Shown piece by piece: positions 10,394 through 60,948 of a stretch of DNA of 60,948 bases. The notes beneath the pieces are model-generated. The model had not been told where the DNA came from, made no database searches, and saw only the letters and a list, made by a program, of their open reading frames with translations. How positions within the stretch are numbered: position 1 is the first letter of the stretch; every line of letters begins with the position of its first letter. The translations under genes were made by a program, and so were the position numbers. Source of the stretch: Clostridia bacterium (GTDB lineage: Bacteria; Bacillota; Clostridia; Oscillospirales; Acutalibacteraceae); the NCBI GenBank assembly GCA_017395425.1, contig JAFPUM010000004.1, positions 1-60,948 of the forward strand. Direction: 5' to 3'.

Positions 10394-10819
10394 TCAGTTG
10401 CCGTCCGTATTCTTTTCGGAACCCATATACATCCCGCCCAGCCTGTCATCCGAAACCGTGGCGGGGCTGCCGCATTGGGGACAGTATTTCTGACGGTCAA
10501 TCATGAGCGTGGTCTGCCATGAAAAGCCGCACTTGGTACAGGTATGGGTACGCGGCACCGGCATGGGACCGTAGATGCACTGCATGAGGTTCTGATAGGG
10601 TTCAAAGGCGCCTTCCCCGGCTTTGGTGCCGCAGATACGGCAGTACTTGTCATCCGGCTCGAGACCGGCGTGACAGTTGCCGCACTGCCGGCTGCGATCG
10701 GGTTCCACCCAGTCTCCCGCGCGGTTGACCGTGCCGCAGGCGGTACAGCGCGGCTGTTCCCAGCTCACCGGCTTGCCGCAATTTTCGCAGCGGCCGCGAC
10801 GGTTATTCCCGAATATCAT
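10394..10819 (-). CDS. Multi-zinc-ribbon protein
   Basis: 141 aa with eight CxxC-type knuckles giving about four zinc ribbons (CENCGKP, CTACGTV, CGNCHAG, CRICGTK, CTKCGFS, CPQCGSP). No membrane segment. The ATG at 10819 is chosen over 10828 because GAAAGGA then has proper 8-nt spacing. The start overlaps the end of the radical SAM gene by 17 nt, indicating tight coupling. The role is unknown; such ribbons usually mediate nucleic-acid or protein contacts. Confidence 0.75.
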   Translation of the reverse strand: MIFGNNRRGRCENCGKPVSWEQPRCTACGTVNRAGDWVEPDRSRQCGNCHAGLEPDDKYCRICGTKAGEGAFEPYQNLMQCIYGPMPVPRTHTCTKCGFSWQTTLMIDRQKYCPQCGSPATVSDDRLGGMYMGSEKNTDGN

Positions 10820-11903
10820 AACAATCATCCTTTCTCAAAAAGCAAAATAAAGGTTTGTTCCGTTCATAATCCCATGTATGCGCCGCGTCTCCGCCGCAGA
10901 ATGTCCGTTCGGGGCATTGGCGGCATTCGGCGCAGCTTTCGCTCCGGTCGGCGCGGAAGGCTTGGAATTTATCCCGCCAGACCTCCGAAAACCGGTCGCG
11001 GGCAATGTGTCCCTGCACCAGTTCCGGACGGCGTTCGATATCGAGACAGGAGTATATTTCACCACTGCACAGAATACTCGCGACATACAGTCCCGAACCG
11101 CACAAAAAATAATTGTCCCGCACCTCGTGTTCGTATTCATAGGAAAGATAGTGGGAACAGCCGAAACGCACGTCCATCGGCGTGGCGGGGTCGAAACGTC
11201 TGGCGCGGATGAAGTCCAGCAGCCGGGTAAATTCCTCGCGGGAGAGCAGCAGTTCCGGATGGGACAGCGCACGCCCGATGGGTTCAAGGTTGATCACACG
11301 CCATGAGGCAATGTGCAGTGTGCAGAGAAATTTATACAGCGCTTCCCGCTCGGCGAAATTCTCTTTGTGCAGCACGGTGGTGATCTGCACCGGAATCGCC
11401 GCGTCATGAAGCACTTCCACAGCCTTGACGGTGCGGTCAAAGCTGCCCGGCACCTGACGCAGCGCGTCATGGGAATCGCGCAGTCCGTCGAGACTGAGGG
11501 TGAGGGTGCCGATGCCGTTGGTACGGAGCCGCGCGGCGCAGGCGCCGTCAATCAGCGTGCCGTTGCTGGTCATGCCCCACGGGAATCCCAGCGCGTGAAC
11601 GCGGGCGGCAATGCGGTCAAAATCAGGGTGGAGCAGCGGTTCGCCGCCGGTCAGACAGATCATGACCGAGCCGGGTTCAAAATCCTCGGCGACCTGTTCC
11701 AGTGTGCGCAGCAGGAGTTCCGTGTCCAGAAAGGTGCCGTGATGGGGTTCGCATCGGCTTCCGCAGTGGAGACAGCGGAGGTTGCAGCGGTCGGTCAGCT
11801 CCACGAAGAGATAGGTCAGACGGGGATGGGCGCGGAGATGGGCGCGATACTGCGCAAGCTGTTCCATATTGCGCGATTTAATGCGGACTTTTGCGTCGTT
11901 CAA
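10803..11903 (-). CDS. Radical SAM/SPASM domain protein
   Basis: 366 aa. The [4Fe-4S]-SAM site CNLRCLHC (Cys40/44/47) and the SAM-binding GGEPLLHP are present. The C-terminal SPASM region (CGSG..., CSGEIYSC, CAECRQCPERTFCGG) would bind auxiliary clusters. The open frame reaches a GTG at 11915 that overlaps its own ribosome site; the TTG at 11903, 11 nt after AGGGAGG, is more likely. No small peptide substrate lies next to it, so it may act on a protein or on a distant peptide. SPASM enzymes include peptide maturases and sulfatase-activating enzymes. Confidence 0.85.
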   Translation of the reverse strand: MNDAKVRIKSRNMEQLAQYRAHLRAHPRLTYLFVELTDRCNLRCLHCGSRCEPHHGTFLDTELLLRTLEQVAEDFEPGSVMICLTGGEPLLHPDFDRIAARVHALGFPWGMTSNGTLIDGACAARLRTNGIGTLTLSLDGLRDSHDALRQVPGSFDRTVKAVEVLHDAAIPVQITTVLHKENFAEREALYKFLCTLHIASWRVINLEPIGRALSHPELLLSREEFTRLLDFIRARRFDPATPMDVRFGCSHYLSYEYEHEVRDNYFLCGSGLYVASILCSGEIYSCLDIERRPELVQGHIARDRFSEVWRDKFQAFRADRSESCAECRQCPERTFCGGDAAHTWDYERNKPLFCFLRKDDCYDIRE

Positions 11904-12109
11904 TGGCGACGGCACCTCCCTTCATTTCATCAGAAAATCCTTCTGCTTTTATTGTAACTGTCAGACGCGGTAAATTCAACCCGTTTTTTTTGAACAAGGG
12001 TGGAAAAAAACAAAAGAAACGAAAAAATCACTAAAAAATTTATAAATACCTGTTCCATTTTTCATCTCTCTATGCTATAATCTTGGGGAAAGGATGTGTC
12101 TCATCTGCA
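11904..12109. other. AT-rich divergent intergenic region with a -10 element
   Basis: Separates the minus-strand radical SAM operon from the plus-strand CpXC gene. TATAAT at 12076-12081 is a good -10 for the CpXC gene, but I see no good -35 at 17 bp. Nothing else is evident. Confidence 0.45.
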
Positions 12110-58655: not shown

Positions 58656-58697
58656 ACCCGATGTACGTTTCATTCCGGACGCGCATCGGGTTTTTTT
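58656..58697 (+). terminator. Terminator of the carboxyltransferase operon
   Basis: 8-bp stem ACCCGATG/CATCGGGT, 20-nt loop, seven T. Confidence 0.8.
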
Positions 58698-58777
58698 GTA
58701 TTCATGCCGCCGAAACGCCAACCTTTTGGGCAATCCGGCGGTTATATAAACAGAAACCGAAAAAGGAGGTTTGTCGT

Positions 58778-59107
58778 ATGAAATTAAAGAAGACAGAACA
58801 GTACGAAGCGGGCTATTCCGCGCATAGCCTTTTGAAGAAATGCGCGGCGGGGGCGCTGGGAGCGGCAATGCTGGGAAGCATGACCGCCTGCACGCCGCAG
58901 TATGACGGGAATATGGTGATAGACGGCGATATTTCCTATGTCACGCCGTCGGACGTGTCGCCGTCGGATGTGTCCACCGGGAGCGAGCTGCCGCTGGATG
59001 GCAAGGTCATGGTAGATCCCGGAGACGACGGGCAGACCGAATCCGGATTCACGCTGGACGGCGACGTGATTGTGTCCTCCGTGCCGGAAGATGGGTCGTC
59101 ACGATGA
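58778..59107 (+). CDS. Lipoprotein-like peptide with three DG(D/K) repeats, probable radical SAM substrate
   Basis: 109 aa; AAAAAGGAGG lies 8 nt before the ATG. Leader KKTEQYEAGYSAHSLLKK, a short hydrophobic stretch (CAAGALGAAMLGSMTAC) ending in a lipobox-like MTAC (Cys38), then an acidic mature part. This holds NMVIDGDISYV (45-55), ELPLDGKVMVD (70-80) and GFTLDGDVIVS (90-100), each followed by a Pro/Asp-rich spacer. Its TGA overlaps the ATG of the radical SAM gene. It is either a precursor with three core repeats or a lipoprotein modified by the enzyme. Confidence 0.72.
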   Translation: MKLKKTEQYEAGYSAHSLLKKCAAGALGAAMLGSMTACTPQYDGNMVIDGDISYVTPSDVSPSDVSTGSELPLDGKVMVDPGDDGQTESGFTLDGDVIVSSVPEDGSSR

Positions 59108-60165
59108 TCGGCACCTTGATTCTCACCAAACAATGCAATCTCCGGTGCCGCTACTGCTTTGAAACGCATGCGAATGTCTTTATGACCGAGGAAACCGCGC
59201 TGGCGGGGGTGGATTTGCTGGCAAGCGACGACCAGCCGCAGGGCGGGATTTCCTTCTTCGGCGGGGAACCGCTGCTGCGGAAGGAACTGATTTACCGCTG
59301 TGTGGATAGGGTAAAAACCATGTATCCCCACAAGGTCTTTTCCTACAATATGACTACCAACGGTCTGCTGCTGGACGAGGAATTTCTCACCTTCGCCCGC
59401 GACAATCATTTCACCATTGCCCTTTCCCACGACGGTCTGATGAGCCGGGTCAACCGGTTGTATCCCGACGGACAAGACTGTCTGGCGCTGCTGGACGAAA
59501 AGCTTGCACTGCTGATGTACTATCAGCCAAATACGTTCATCATGGCAACCGTATCGGCGGACTGCGTGAAGCAGGCGGCGGAATCGGTGATTTCGCTTTA
59601 TGAAAAAAGTATCTGTCAGGTGAATCTGACAGTGGATGCCCGTCCGGAGGCGGGATGGAACGATGACAGCATGGACGAACTGAGGCGGCAGCTTCGTTTG
59701 ATCGCGGATTATGTGTTTGCCGCGTTCCGGGAAGGAAAACAGATTTCCTTCCACGGATTTGACGAGAAAATACGGAGTATTACCCAGCAAAAGTCCTGTC
59801 ATGTGTGCAATCTCGGCTACCGGAAGCTCTATATCGACTGGGACGGGTGGATTTACCCGTGCATTCAGTTCGGGGGACTGGCGGAATACCGCATCGGCAG
59901 TGTGACGGAGGGCATTGACGAGGGTGCGCGGGAAGCGATTCACCGGGAAAGTCTGGTGAAACCGGCGTTCTGCCGGGGCTGCGCGCTGGAGGCGCGGTGC
60001 GTCAATGACTGTGCGTGTCTGAATTATCAGCAATGCGGGAATATGGGAGAGGTGTCGCCGGAACAGTGCGCGTTTCAGCGGATGCTGATCGAGACGGCGG
60101 ACGAGCTGGCAAGGCGTATGATCGAACAGGATGAGGAGCAGTTTATCAAACGCTATCTGCAATAA
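59104..60165 (+). CDS. Radical SAM/SPASM peptide maturase-like enzyme
   Basis: 353 aa. CNLRCRYC (Cys11/15/18), GGEPLLRK, MTTNGLLL and ALSHDG are radical SAM core motifs. The SPASM region has many Cys: CHVCNLGYRKLYIDWDGWIYPC, CRGCALEARCVNDCACLNYQQC, EQCAF; this fits two auxiliary [4Fe-4S] clusters. No N-terminal RRE (precursor-recognition) domain is visible. Starts in the ATGA overlap with the peptide gene, so the two are made together. Chemistry unknown. Confidence 0.87.
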   Translation: MIGTLILTKQCNLRCRYCFETHANVFMTEETALAGVDLLASDDQPQGGISFFGGEPLLRKELIYRCVDRVKTMYPHKVFSYNMTTNGLLLDEEFLTFARDNHFTIALSHDGLMSRVNRLYPDGQDCLALLDEKLALLMYYQPNTFIMATVSADCVKQAAESVISLYEKSICQVNLTVDARPEAGWNDDSMDELRRQLRLIADYVFAAFREGKQISFHGFDEKIRSITQQKSCHVCNLGYRKLYIDWDGWIYPCIQFGGLAEYRIGSVTEGIDEGAREAIHRESLVKPAFCRGCALEARCVNDCACLNYQQCGNMGEVSPEQCAFQRMLIETADELARRMIEQDEEQFIKRYLQ

Positions 60166-60174
60166 AAAAGAGGG

Positions 60175-60354
60175 GTACGCAATTAGCCGCGCAGCGGCGC
60201 GGGGTCCAGGGGGTGAGCTCCCTGGCAGGGGCGTGGGGGCAGCGCCACCACTGGGGACTGGGGCAAAGCCCCAGCAGGCAGGCGTAAGCCTGCCGAGCGA
60301 GACGAGCCAAGACCCACAACGGGGAAGGGCGAATCCGGAAAAGGATCCCTTCCA
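60175..60354 (+). repeat. Modular hairpin repeat, copy 9 (after the radical SAM gene)
   Basis: GTACGC then AATTAG (60181-60186), CCGCGCAGCGG, CCAGGGGGTGAGCTCCCTGG hairpin (the copy 1 type), CTGGGGCAAAGCCCCAG, GCAGGCGTAAGCCTGC, GAGCGAGACGAGCC, ends GGAAGGGCGAATCC and AAAAGGATCCCTT. Confidence 0.87.
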
Positions 60355-60391: not shown

Positions 60392-60438
60392 AACGGACTG
60401 TTAAGAATACTTTTATCTTAACAGTCCGTTATTTTTTT
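60392..60438 (+). terminator. Rho-independent terminator
   Basis: 15-bp perfect stem AACGGACTGTTAAGA with its complement (60416-60430), 9-nt loop, T-run. It comes after repeat copy 9, which is therefore within the transcript. Confidence 0.9.
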
Positions 60439-60674: not shown

Positions 60675-60948
60675 GAGAGTTCCTTTTTTGTGTTCCCCCT
60701 GTCCCGTTTTGTAGATTGGCGCGATTTGCTTTGGTGGGATTTCCCGTTTGCATTCGCCCGACCCCGTTTTGTAGATTGGCGCGATTTGCTTTGGTGGGGT
60801 TCCCCGTTTGCATTCGCCCGACCCCGTTGCAAAGATTGGCTTGTTTCGCTCGGCAGGCTTACGCCTGCCTGCCGGTGGCGCTGCCCCCGGTCCCCCGCAA
60901 GGGCGCTGCCCTTGACCTGCCAGGGAGCTCACCCCCTGGACCCCGCGC
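60675..60948 (-). repeat. Modular hairpin repeat, copy 10 (cut by window end)
   Basis: Minus strand, 5' part beyond the window: CCAGGGGGTGAGCTCCCTGG hairpin, CAAGGGCAGCGCCCTTG, GGCAGGCGTAAGCCTGCC, then the 3' end unit (CCAATCT, a GGGCGAATGC-type motif and about 30 nt more) repeated with an exact 60-bp period over 60701-60840, three units with the last diverged. Confidence 0.83.

Follow-up and report, generated by a model that had tools for sequence, protein, structure and literature searches.

A radical SAM/SPASM enzyme paired with a leader-bearing lipoprotein, a candidate two-gene modification system in Clostridia

In a 60,948-nucleotide stretch of DNA from a Clostridia bacterium of the family Acutalibacteraceae (contig JAFPUM010000004.1; the whole stretch is called the window hereafter), the gene for a small lipoprotein-like precursor overlaps the gene for a radical SAM/SPASM enzyme. 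The two genes recur together in distant relatives, the leader-like motif and the short modules of the lipoprotein are conserved, and the cluster ligands of the enzyme are intact. Based on these sequence patterns, the pair is probably a two-gene post-translational modification system, in which the SPASM enzyme would read the leader and modify the lipoprotein before its export by the lipoprotein pathway.

Results

A small lipoprotein gene overlaps a radical SAM/SPASM gene

The features of the locus, in window coordinates, are the following.

58674..58697, plus strand: terminator-like hairpin and T run 3' of an upstream carboxylase/decarboxylase-type gene
58763..58769, plus strand: Shine-Dalgarno sequence AAGGAGG, 8 nt upstream of the small-gene ATG
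58778..59107, plus strand: small open reading frame for the 109-aa lipoprotein-like precursor (ATG at 58778, stop at 59105-59107)
58778..58825, plus strand: leader-like n-region MKLKKTEQYEAGYSAH with Y-x-x-G-Y (YEAGY at 58802-58816)
58835..58891, plus strand: signal-peptide stretch (K20 onward) and lipobox SMTAC, by a pattern rule and not SignalP
58889-58891, plus strand: lipid-site Cys38, predicted from the lipobox
58901..58915, plus strand: loose fourth repeat copy YDGNM, residues 42-46
58919..58933, plus strand: repeat 1, IDGDI, residues 48-52
58994..59008, plus strand: repeat 2, LDGKV, residues 73-77
59054..59068, plus strand: repeat 3, LDGDV, residues 93-97, the best-conserved copy within the genus
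59104..60165, plus strand: 353-aa radical SAM/SPASM enzyme, its start codon overlapping the precursor stop (ATGA)
59134..59157, plus strand: radical SAM cluster motif CNLRCRYC (CX3CX2C), C11/C15/C18
59806..60069, plus strand: SPASM auxiliary-cluster region, C235 to C322 (Pfam SPASM 20.6 bits, cut-off 21.5)
60392..60438, plus strand: hairpin followed by a T run, read by eye, a possible terminator of the gene pair

The ATGA overlap described in the original prediction was confirmed at position 59104, and the two closest relatives, L015 and L016, have it as well. Purifying selection acts on the small gene, pS being 0.158 and pN 0.040 between the window and L015. Given the terminator-like hairpin upstream, the lipoprotein/enzyme pair may be its own transcription unit. 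The gene preceding that hairpin is, judging from its sequence, presumably of the carboxylase/decarboxylase type. A terminator scan returned 3 hairpin/T-run sites against a shuffle mean of 3.0, a result that is weak alone; the scan missed the hairpin at 60392..60438 because its loop is longer than the scan permits.

No protease or transporter was recognised next to the pair, where fewer than 800 bases lie between the enzyme and the contig end, and the listed open reading frames 3' of the enzyme in the window, read without family searches, include no other plausible gene. An Rfam scan of the window gave nothing at the gathering score. The contig end also carries a GC-rich element in two identical inverted copies (60204-60227, plus strand; 60918-60941, minus strand), just past the second of which the contig ends; direct repeats that are nearly identical can be seen between about 60690 and 60850.

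By pattern rule, the precursor has the n-region, the hydrophobic stretch and the lipobox Cys of a bacterial lipoprotein, in agreement with the lipoprotein-type signal that had been predicted from the hydrophobic stretch ending in MTAC. The M at position -3 of the SMTAC lipobox is unusual, L being found there in most relatives. The window protein has no Cys C-terminal of the lipid-site Cys. It matched no Pfam or NCBIfam model at E values up to 1, and its relatives in the genus had single weak NCBIfam matches only, the best being to the entericidin B model (E 0.0076).

The enzyme scores below the cut-offs of curated maturase families

The CX3CX2C motif and the SPASM cysteines C235, C253, C290, C293, C299, C303 and C322 are invariant in a nine-row alignment of the enzyme. 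Against Pfam, radical SAM was matched and SPASM fell marginally under its cut-off. The best NCBIfam match was the PapB maturase model NF047865, at 169.3 bits against a cut-off of 340; scores were 104.9 bits (cut-off 425) for the SCIFF model TIGR03974, 101.1 bits (cut-off 350) for the CXXX-repeat maturase model TIGR04115 and 31 bits (cut-off 425) for TIGR04133, rSAM_w_lipo. On these scores we rejected membership in the PapB, SCIFF and CXXX-repeat maturase families; the mature part of the window lipoprotein also has no Cys-Xn-Asp/Glu motif, and the window protein no CXXX repeat. The alignment to TIGR03974 begins at model position 102, so the SCIFF N-terminal part is missing from the enzyme. The solved structure closest by sequence, 5wgg, bears the entry name 'Radical SAM domain protein'; we take it to be the SCIFF maturase CteB.

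TIGR04133 deserves separate mention because the name that NCBI gives this radical SAM/SPASM family refers to a lipoprotein partner, and the original prediction had pointed to a family of this kind in TIGRFAMs. The score of the enzyme does not support membership, and the window lipoprotein is likewise without an NCBIfam match. The partner model of TIGR04133 is presumably TIGR04134. A second radical SAM/SPASM protein, at 10803-11915 of the window on the minus strand, has TIGR04133 as its best match (272.8 bits, cut-off 425), and a further TIGR04133-matching protein lies on contig C31 (265 bits).

The enzyme begins directly at its radical SAM domain, which leaves no space for an N-terminal RRE, as the original prediction had stated of this SPASM protein, and no RRE was found in the enzyme or beside it within the window. 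The sole PqqD-like gene of the genome above cut-off (contig C50:28712-28924, minus strand; locus L128) is unlinked to the pair. It encodes a stand-alone protein of 70 aa (43 bits) and adjoins a short open reading frame without a Pfam match; the surrounding open reading frames include none recognised as a radical SAM gene. This PqqD-like protein might serve a maturase in trans.

In a phylogenetic tree with 8 SCIFF-type and 2 PapB enzymes as the comparison set, the enzymes that accompany both lipoprotein types described below fall into a single group (100/99), separate from this comparison set. L028, a contig-edge fragment, and L058 were omitted, and the long branches L012, L051 and L035 are placed unsurely. 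Codon 29 of the L050 enzyme gene is an in-frame stop.

The lipoprotein and the enzyme occur together across the clade

In a protein search the enzyme is present in all 18 genomes of the genus, and it was found in 10 of 300 family genomes at 1e-40, with an identity outside the genus of 34-38% where measured. A nine-row enzyme profile at 1e-75 found it in 7 of 394 order, 16 of 391 class and 4 of 398 phylum genomes, samples that, together with the family one, overlap and were drawn from larger groups, and that include the window's own genome. Relatives of the enzyme recur across other families and orders.

Most of the genus sequences, but not that of genome G305, went into a lipoprotein profile that gave matches with E<1e-20 in all 18 genomes of the genus; in 17 of these the matched gene is linked to the enzyme. 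In G305 (L018) the lipoprotein gene is in its usual place behind the carboxylase/decarboxylase-type gene and the enzyme is on another contig. Small genes lacking the enzyme had been named beforehand as evidence against a pairing; both genes are present throughout the genus, unlinked in G305. A sample of 125 family genomes gave full-length matches in its two genus members only, and two weak matches (28 and 24.7 bits) were in longer frames and without the leader. Relatives that are distant and short-tailed, L012 (G001) for example, escape this profile, which is therefore a weak test for enzyme-free copies, and such copies may exist among distant lipoproteins.

We surveyed 43 enzyme loci, gathered with the window enzyme and the nine-row profile of the same clade, so that the survey describes that clade. 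Dropped beforehand were L013 and L014 (whose genomes are apparently those of L015 and L016), L029 (a second fragment of the G306 enzyme) and L030-L032 (repeats of L001, L008 and L009). A blind lipobox rule, which considers lipobox proteins on the same strand only, identified a neighbouring lipoprotein at 37 of the 43 enzyme loci versus 3 of 32 control loci (30 SCIFF and 2 PapB); the three control matches resemble membrane proteins. After correction by hand, 41 of the 43 carry a lipoprotein of the window kind, which supports the precursor/enzyme pair originally proposed. At L035 the rule picked the wrong open reading frame and the true lipoprotein gene is present; the rule overlooked L046 (lipoprotein 740 bases downstream) and L053, which were added by hand; and L011 and L048, counted among the 41, have C-terminal lipoprotein halves only, at contig edges. 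The other two of the 43 are L018, the unlinked case in G305, and L058.

At L058, the weakest enzyme match and one with a split reading frame, there is no lipobox protein and the locus was not counted. Behind its enzyme (2420-2970) one frame has a leader-like start (IKPVK...), and the next frame a signal-like stretch and two module-like strings without a lipobox Cys. An LtaS-like gene, for which we claim no role, lies 3' of the enzyme in L018, L021-L025 and L027; its Sulfatase domain was checked in L021 only, similar starts being read elsewhere.

The mature parts are of two kinds

C-terminal of the lipid Cys, some of the lipoproteins have a larger domain, and the others a short acidic tail that contains PhixG[DEN][VMA] modules. 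Type A, mostly short, acidic and with modules, comprises the window genus, L012, L035 and, from another genus, L051 and L053-L057. Type B lipoproteins, of about 200-320 aa, are found at L007-L011, L033, L034, L036, L046-L050, L052, L059 and L060. A related C-terminus of the LREQVRDFIxWLxxQGII kind is common to 11 aligned type B rows, and FLSE is present in 6 of the 11, within a conserved GxGxxGC...FLSEEEA-like region. These 11 rows gave three single weak NCBIfam matches only, and a comparison of type B lipoproteins with PDB sequences returned no match. L034 combines modules with the type B ending.

The window protein has three strict copies of [IL]DG[DK][IV], spaced 25 and 20 residues, just as the original prediction had described. 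When the mature region was shuffled 2000 times, three strict copies never arose (mean 0.00), and we rejected a chance origin of the repeats. Within the genus, at least two strict copies are present in 2 of 26 rows (the window and its nearest relative only) and at least one in 17. The relaxed module [LIVMFY]xG[DENKG][VIMAEP] is present in 26 of 26 rows and at least twice in 21 (62 modules in the 26 proteins versus 4.78 in shuffles), in line with the predicted repeats with variable spacers; this pattern, like most of the leader patterns given below, was written after sequence inspection, and the kinship of the rows inflates the counts.

Outside the genus, 14 short-tailed proteins (L034 included) contain 29 relaxed modules versus 4.32 in shuffles, with at least one module in 10 and none in 4. 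The strict motif, fixed beforehand by the original prediction, occurs 4 times outside the genus versus 0.02 in shuffles. The large-domain lipoproteins show no module enrichment (6 in 16 proteins versus 9.34 in shuffles). Loss of the repeats in relatives had been named as a sign against the prediction: the relaxed form persists throughout the genus and in most of the other short-tailed proteins, whereas it is unenriched in the large-domain branch. Because the large type is unenriched and some short-tailed proteins have no module, the modified site could not be one sequence throughout. At least one additional Cys is present in 17 of the 26 genus rows, and 9 have none behind the lipobox.

A leader-like motif precedes the signal peptide

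Of 59 n-regions, 51 contain the pattern Y..[PG].?[YFI] (in shuffles, 2.49 on average and 9 at most); the set of 59 excludes edge-cut starts (L011, L048 and the farther lipoproteins of L008 and L009) and includes three signal-less peptides. Within the genus, YxxGY is found ahead of the signal stretch in 28 of 29 rows (shuffle mean 0.20). The non-genus partners mostly have YxxPxY, and [YH]xxPx[YI] or YxxGYP is present in 24 of 30 n-regions (shuffle mean 0.66). By itself, YxxP stands out less, at 20 of 30 (shuffle mean 5.86, maximum 14). The YxxGYP of L049 and L050 is a form between the genus and non-genus leaders.

At three genus loci (L020, L022 and L023), a peptide without a signal lies just before the enzyme. 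YxxGY is kept in L020 and L022, and L023 has the related YEGAF; near their ends the peptides read YGDIIY (L020), CGNMSC (L022) and YGYDMVLF (L023). The leader thus also occurs, unchanged or in related form, on peptides that have no signal, and so is more than a piece of a signal peptide.

A precursor with a conserved leader beside a modifying enzyme is the general arrangement of RiPP systems, and it is the arrangement found here. In many RiPP classes an RRE binds the leader. YxxP is described, in the relevant passages of two papers, as the leader motif bound by the RREs of lasso and LPP systems (PMC13381572, PMC12710340). The leaders are alike in this motif but differ in that lasso and LPP leaders are bound by RREs (PMC13381572), a domain not found in the enzyme or beside it in the window.

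Discussion

We propose that, while the prolipoprotein is still in the cytosol, the enzyme would recognise the Y-x-x-[G/P] leader at its N-terminus and modify the region behind the future lipid Cys, most likely the PhixG[DEN][VMA] modules. Export, the transfer of diacylglycerol to Cys38 and the removal of the leader together with the signal peptide would then fall to Sec, Lgt and LspA, and the outcome would be a modified lipoprotein at the cell surface. The system would need no protease or transporter gene of its own. It is the lipobox that suggests lipidation and leader removal through the general pathway. The sequence that the partners share most widely stands ahead of the signal peptide, would be lost on export and should thus have its role in the cytosol, together with the enzyme; a leader acting there makes the lipoprotein the likely substrate and the leader the likely recognition site. 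A point against modification is that export could compete with it.

The lipoprotein might instead be a partner that shares an operon with an enzyme acting elsewhere, which we consider improbable. The two kinds of mature part, short repeats and a larger domain, have no single common core and the genes are unlinked in one genome, as might be expected of a partner, but the part that is shared is a pre-signal leader, which a surface protein loses on export. Beside the enzyme there are also peptides that have the leader, identical or related, but no signal, and L034 unites modules with the large-type ending, both of which argue for a substrate. The chance is smaller still, and the smallest we assign to any alternative, that YxxGY/YxxPxY only lengthens the n-region and serves lipoprotein sorting or membrane insertion. 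The motif is basic-rich and directly ahead of the hydrophobic stretch in most genus members, yet it is kept, exactly or in related form, in three peptides that have no signal.

Only slightly less remote is a PapB/SCIFF-like thioether formed through the lipobox Cys or an occasional downstream Cys, the 'lipoprotein' being a ranthipeptide with a hydrophobic leader. The PapB maturase model is the best curated match of the enzyme and 5wgg its best solved relative, Asp directly precedes Gly in every strict repeat, and one or more extra Cys are present in 17 of 26 genus rows. The PapB score, however, is 169 bits against a cut-off of 340, and another protein of the genome, probably a SCIFF maturase, outscores the enzyme on that model. 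Neither the window protein nor 9 of the 26 genus rows have a Cys behind the lipobox, and a lipobox Cys held in a thioether could not be lipidated. PapB requires Cys plus Asp/Glu, according to a passage of PMC9413430. The enzyme shares the radical SAM plus SPASM architecture with the PapB maturases but lies outside the branch of the two PapB enzymes, and its substrate would be without CX3D motifs. With the SCIFF maturases it shares the SPASM domain and the nearest solved structure; it differs in having no SCIFF N-terminal part and, beside it, a protein with no spare Cys. The SCIFF substrate has six Cys.

Returning to modification of the lipoprotein, Cys thioethers are unlikely as the reaction because the mature part of the window protein has no Cys except the lipid Cys. 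Our guess, nearly as apt to be right as wrong, is a Cys-free crosslink or oxidation within each module; epimerisation, the guess ranked next, seems unlikely, and some other reaction would be the remaining choice. We rejected an aromatic cyclophane as the general reaction, since LDGKVMV and LDGDVIV (repeats 2 and 3 plus two residues) are without aromatics.

By analogy, the pair is best read as a radical-SAM counterpart of the DAG-RiPPs, RiPP-lipoprotein hybrids described with MNIO enzymes only (DybA/DybH, NedA/NedBC) in passages of a 2025 preprint (PMC12636315). Its authors state there that other hybrids may exist and that such hybrids are expected to be leader-independent, and they also mention autoinducing peptides with lipoprotein signals (PMC12636315). 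The word 'radical' does not occur in that paper (PMC12636315). Signal peptides in RiPP precursors are termed highly unusual in a passage of PMC12452194. Among open-access papers, we found none on this radical SAM/lipoprotein family.

Like the DAG-RiPPs, the pair has a RiPP-type enzyme beside a lipobox precursor, and cytosolic modification followed by the general lipoprotein pathway, as proposed here, would be common to both. Of the defining features of DAG-RiPPs, the RiPP-type enzyme and the lipoprotein signal are present, and a radical SAM protein stands in place of the MNIO enzyme. In the described systems MNIO iron enzymes act on Cys motifs, whereas here a radical SAM/SPASM enzyme would act on Cys-free modules; and in contrast to the expected leader-independence, a leader-like motif precedes the signal peptide.

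It is possible, if a little more doubtful than our first guess at the chemistry, that the pairs make up a radical-SAM DAG-RiPP family scattered across Clostridia and their relatives, with a leader in the n-region that LspA removes in place of a special protease, a new Cys-free radical modification of repeated PhixG[DE]Phi modules shown at the cell surface, and a second branch where enzymes of this clade would modify entire lipoproteins of about 200-320 aa. If true, this would bring an enzyme class new to RiPP-lipoprotein hybrids and a leader built into the lipoprotein signal, and it would account for maturation without a dedicated protease or transporter. The leader motif would be a handle for finding further such systems, and the pair a small two-gene system for discovering radical chemistry on Cys-free repeats. 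Some uncultured Clostridia, these results suggest, may display chemically altered lipoproteins.
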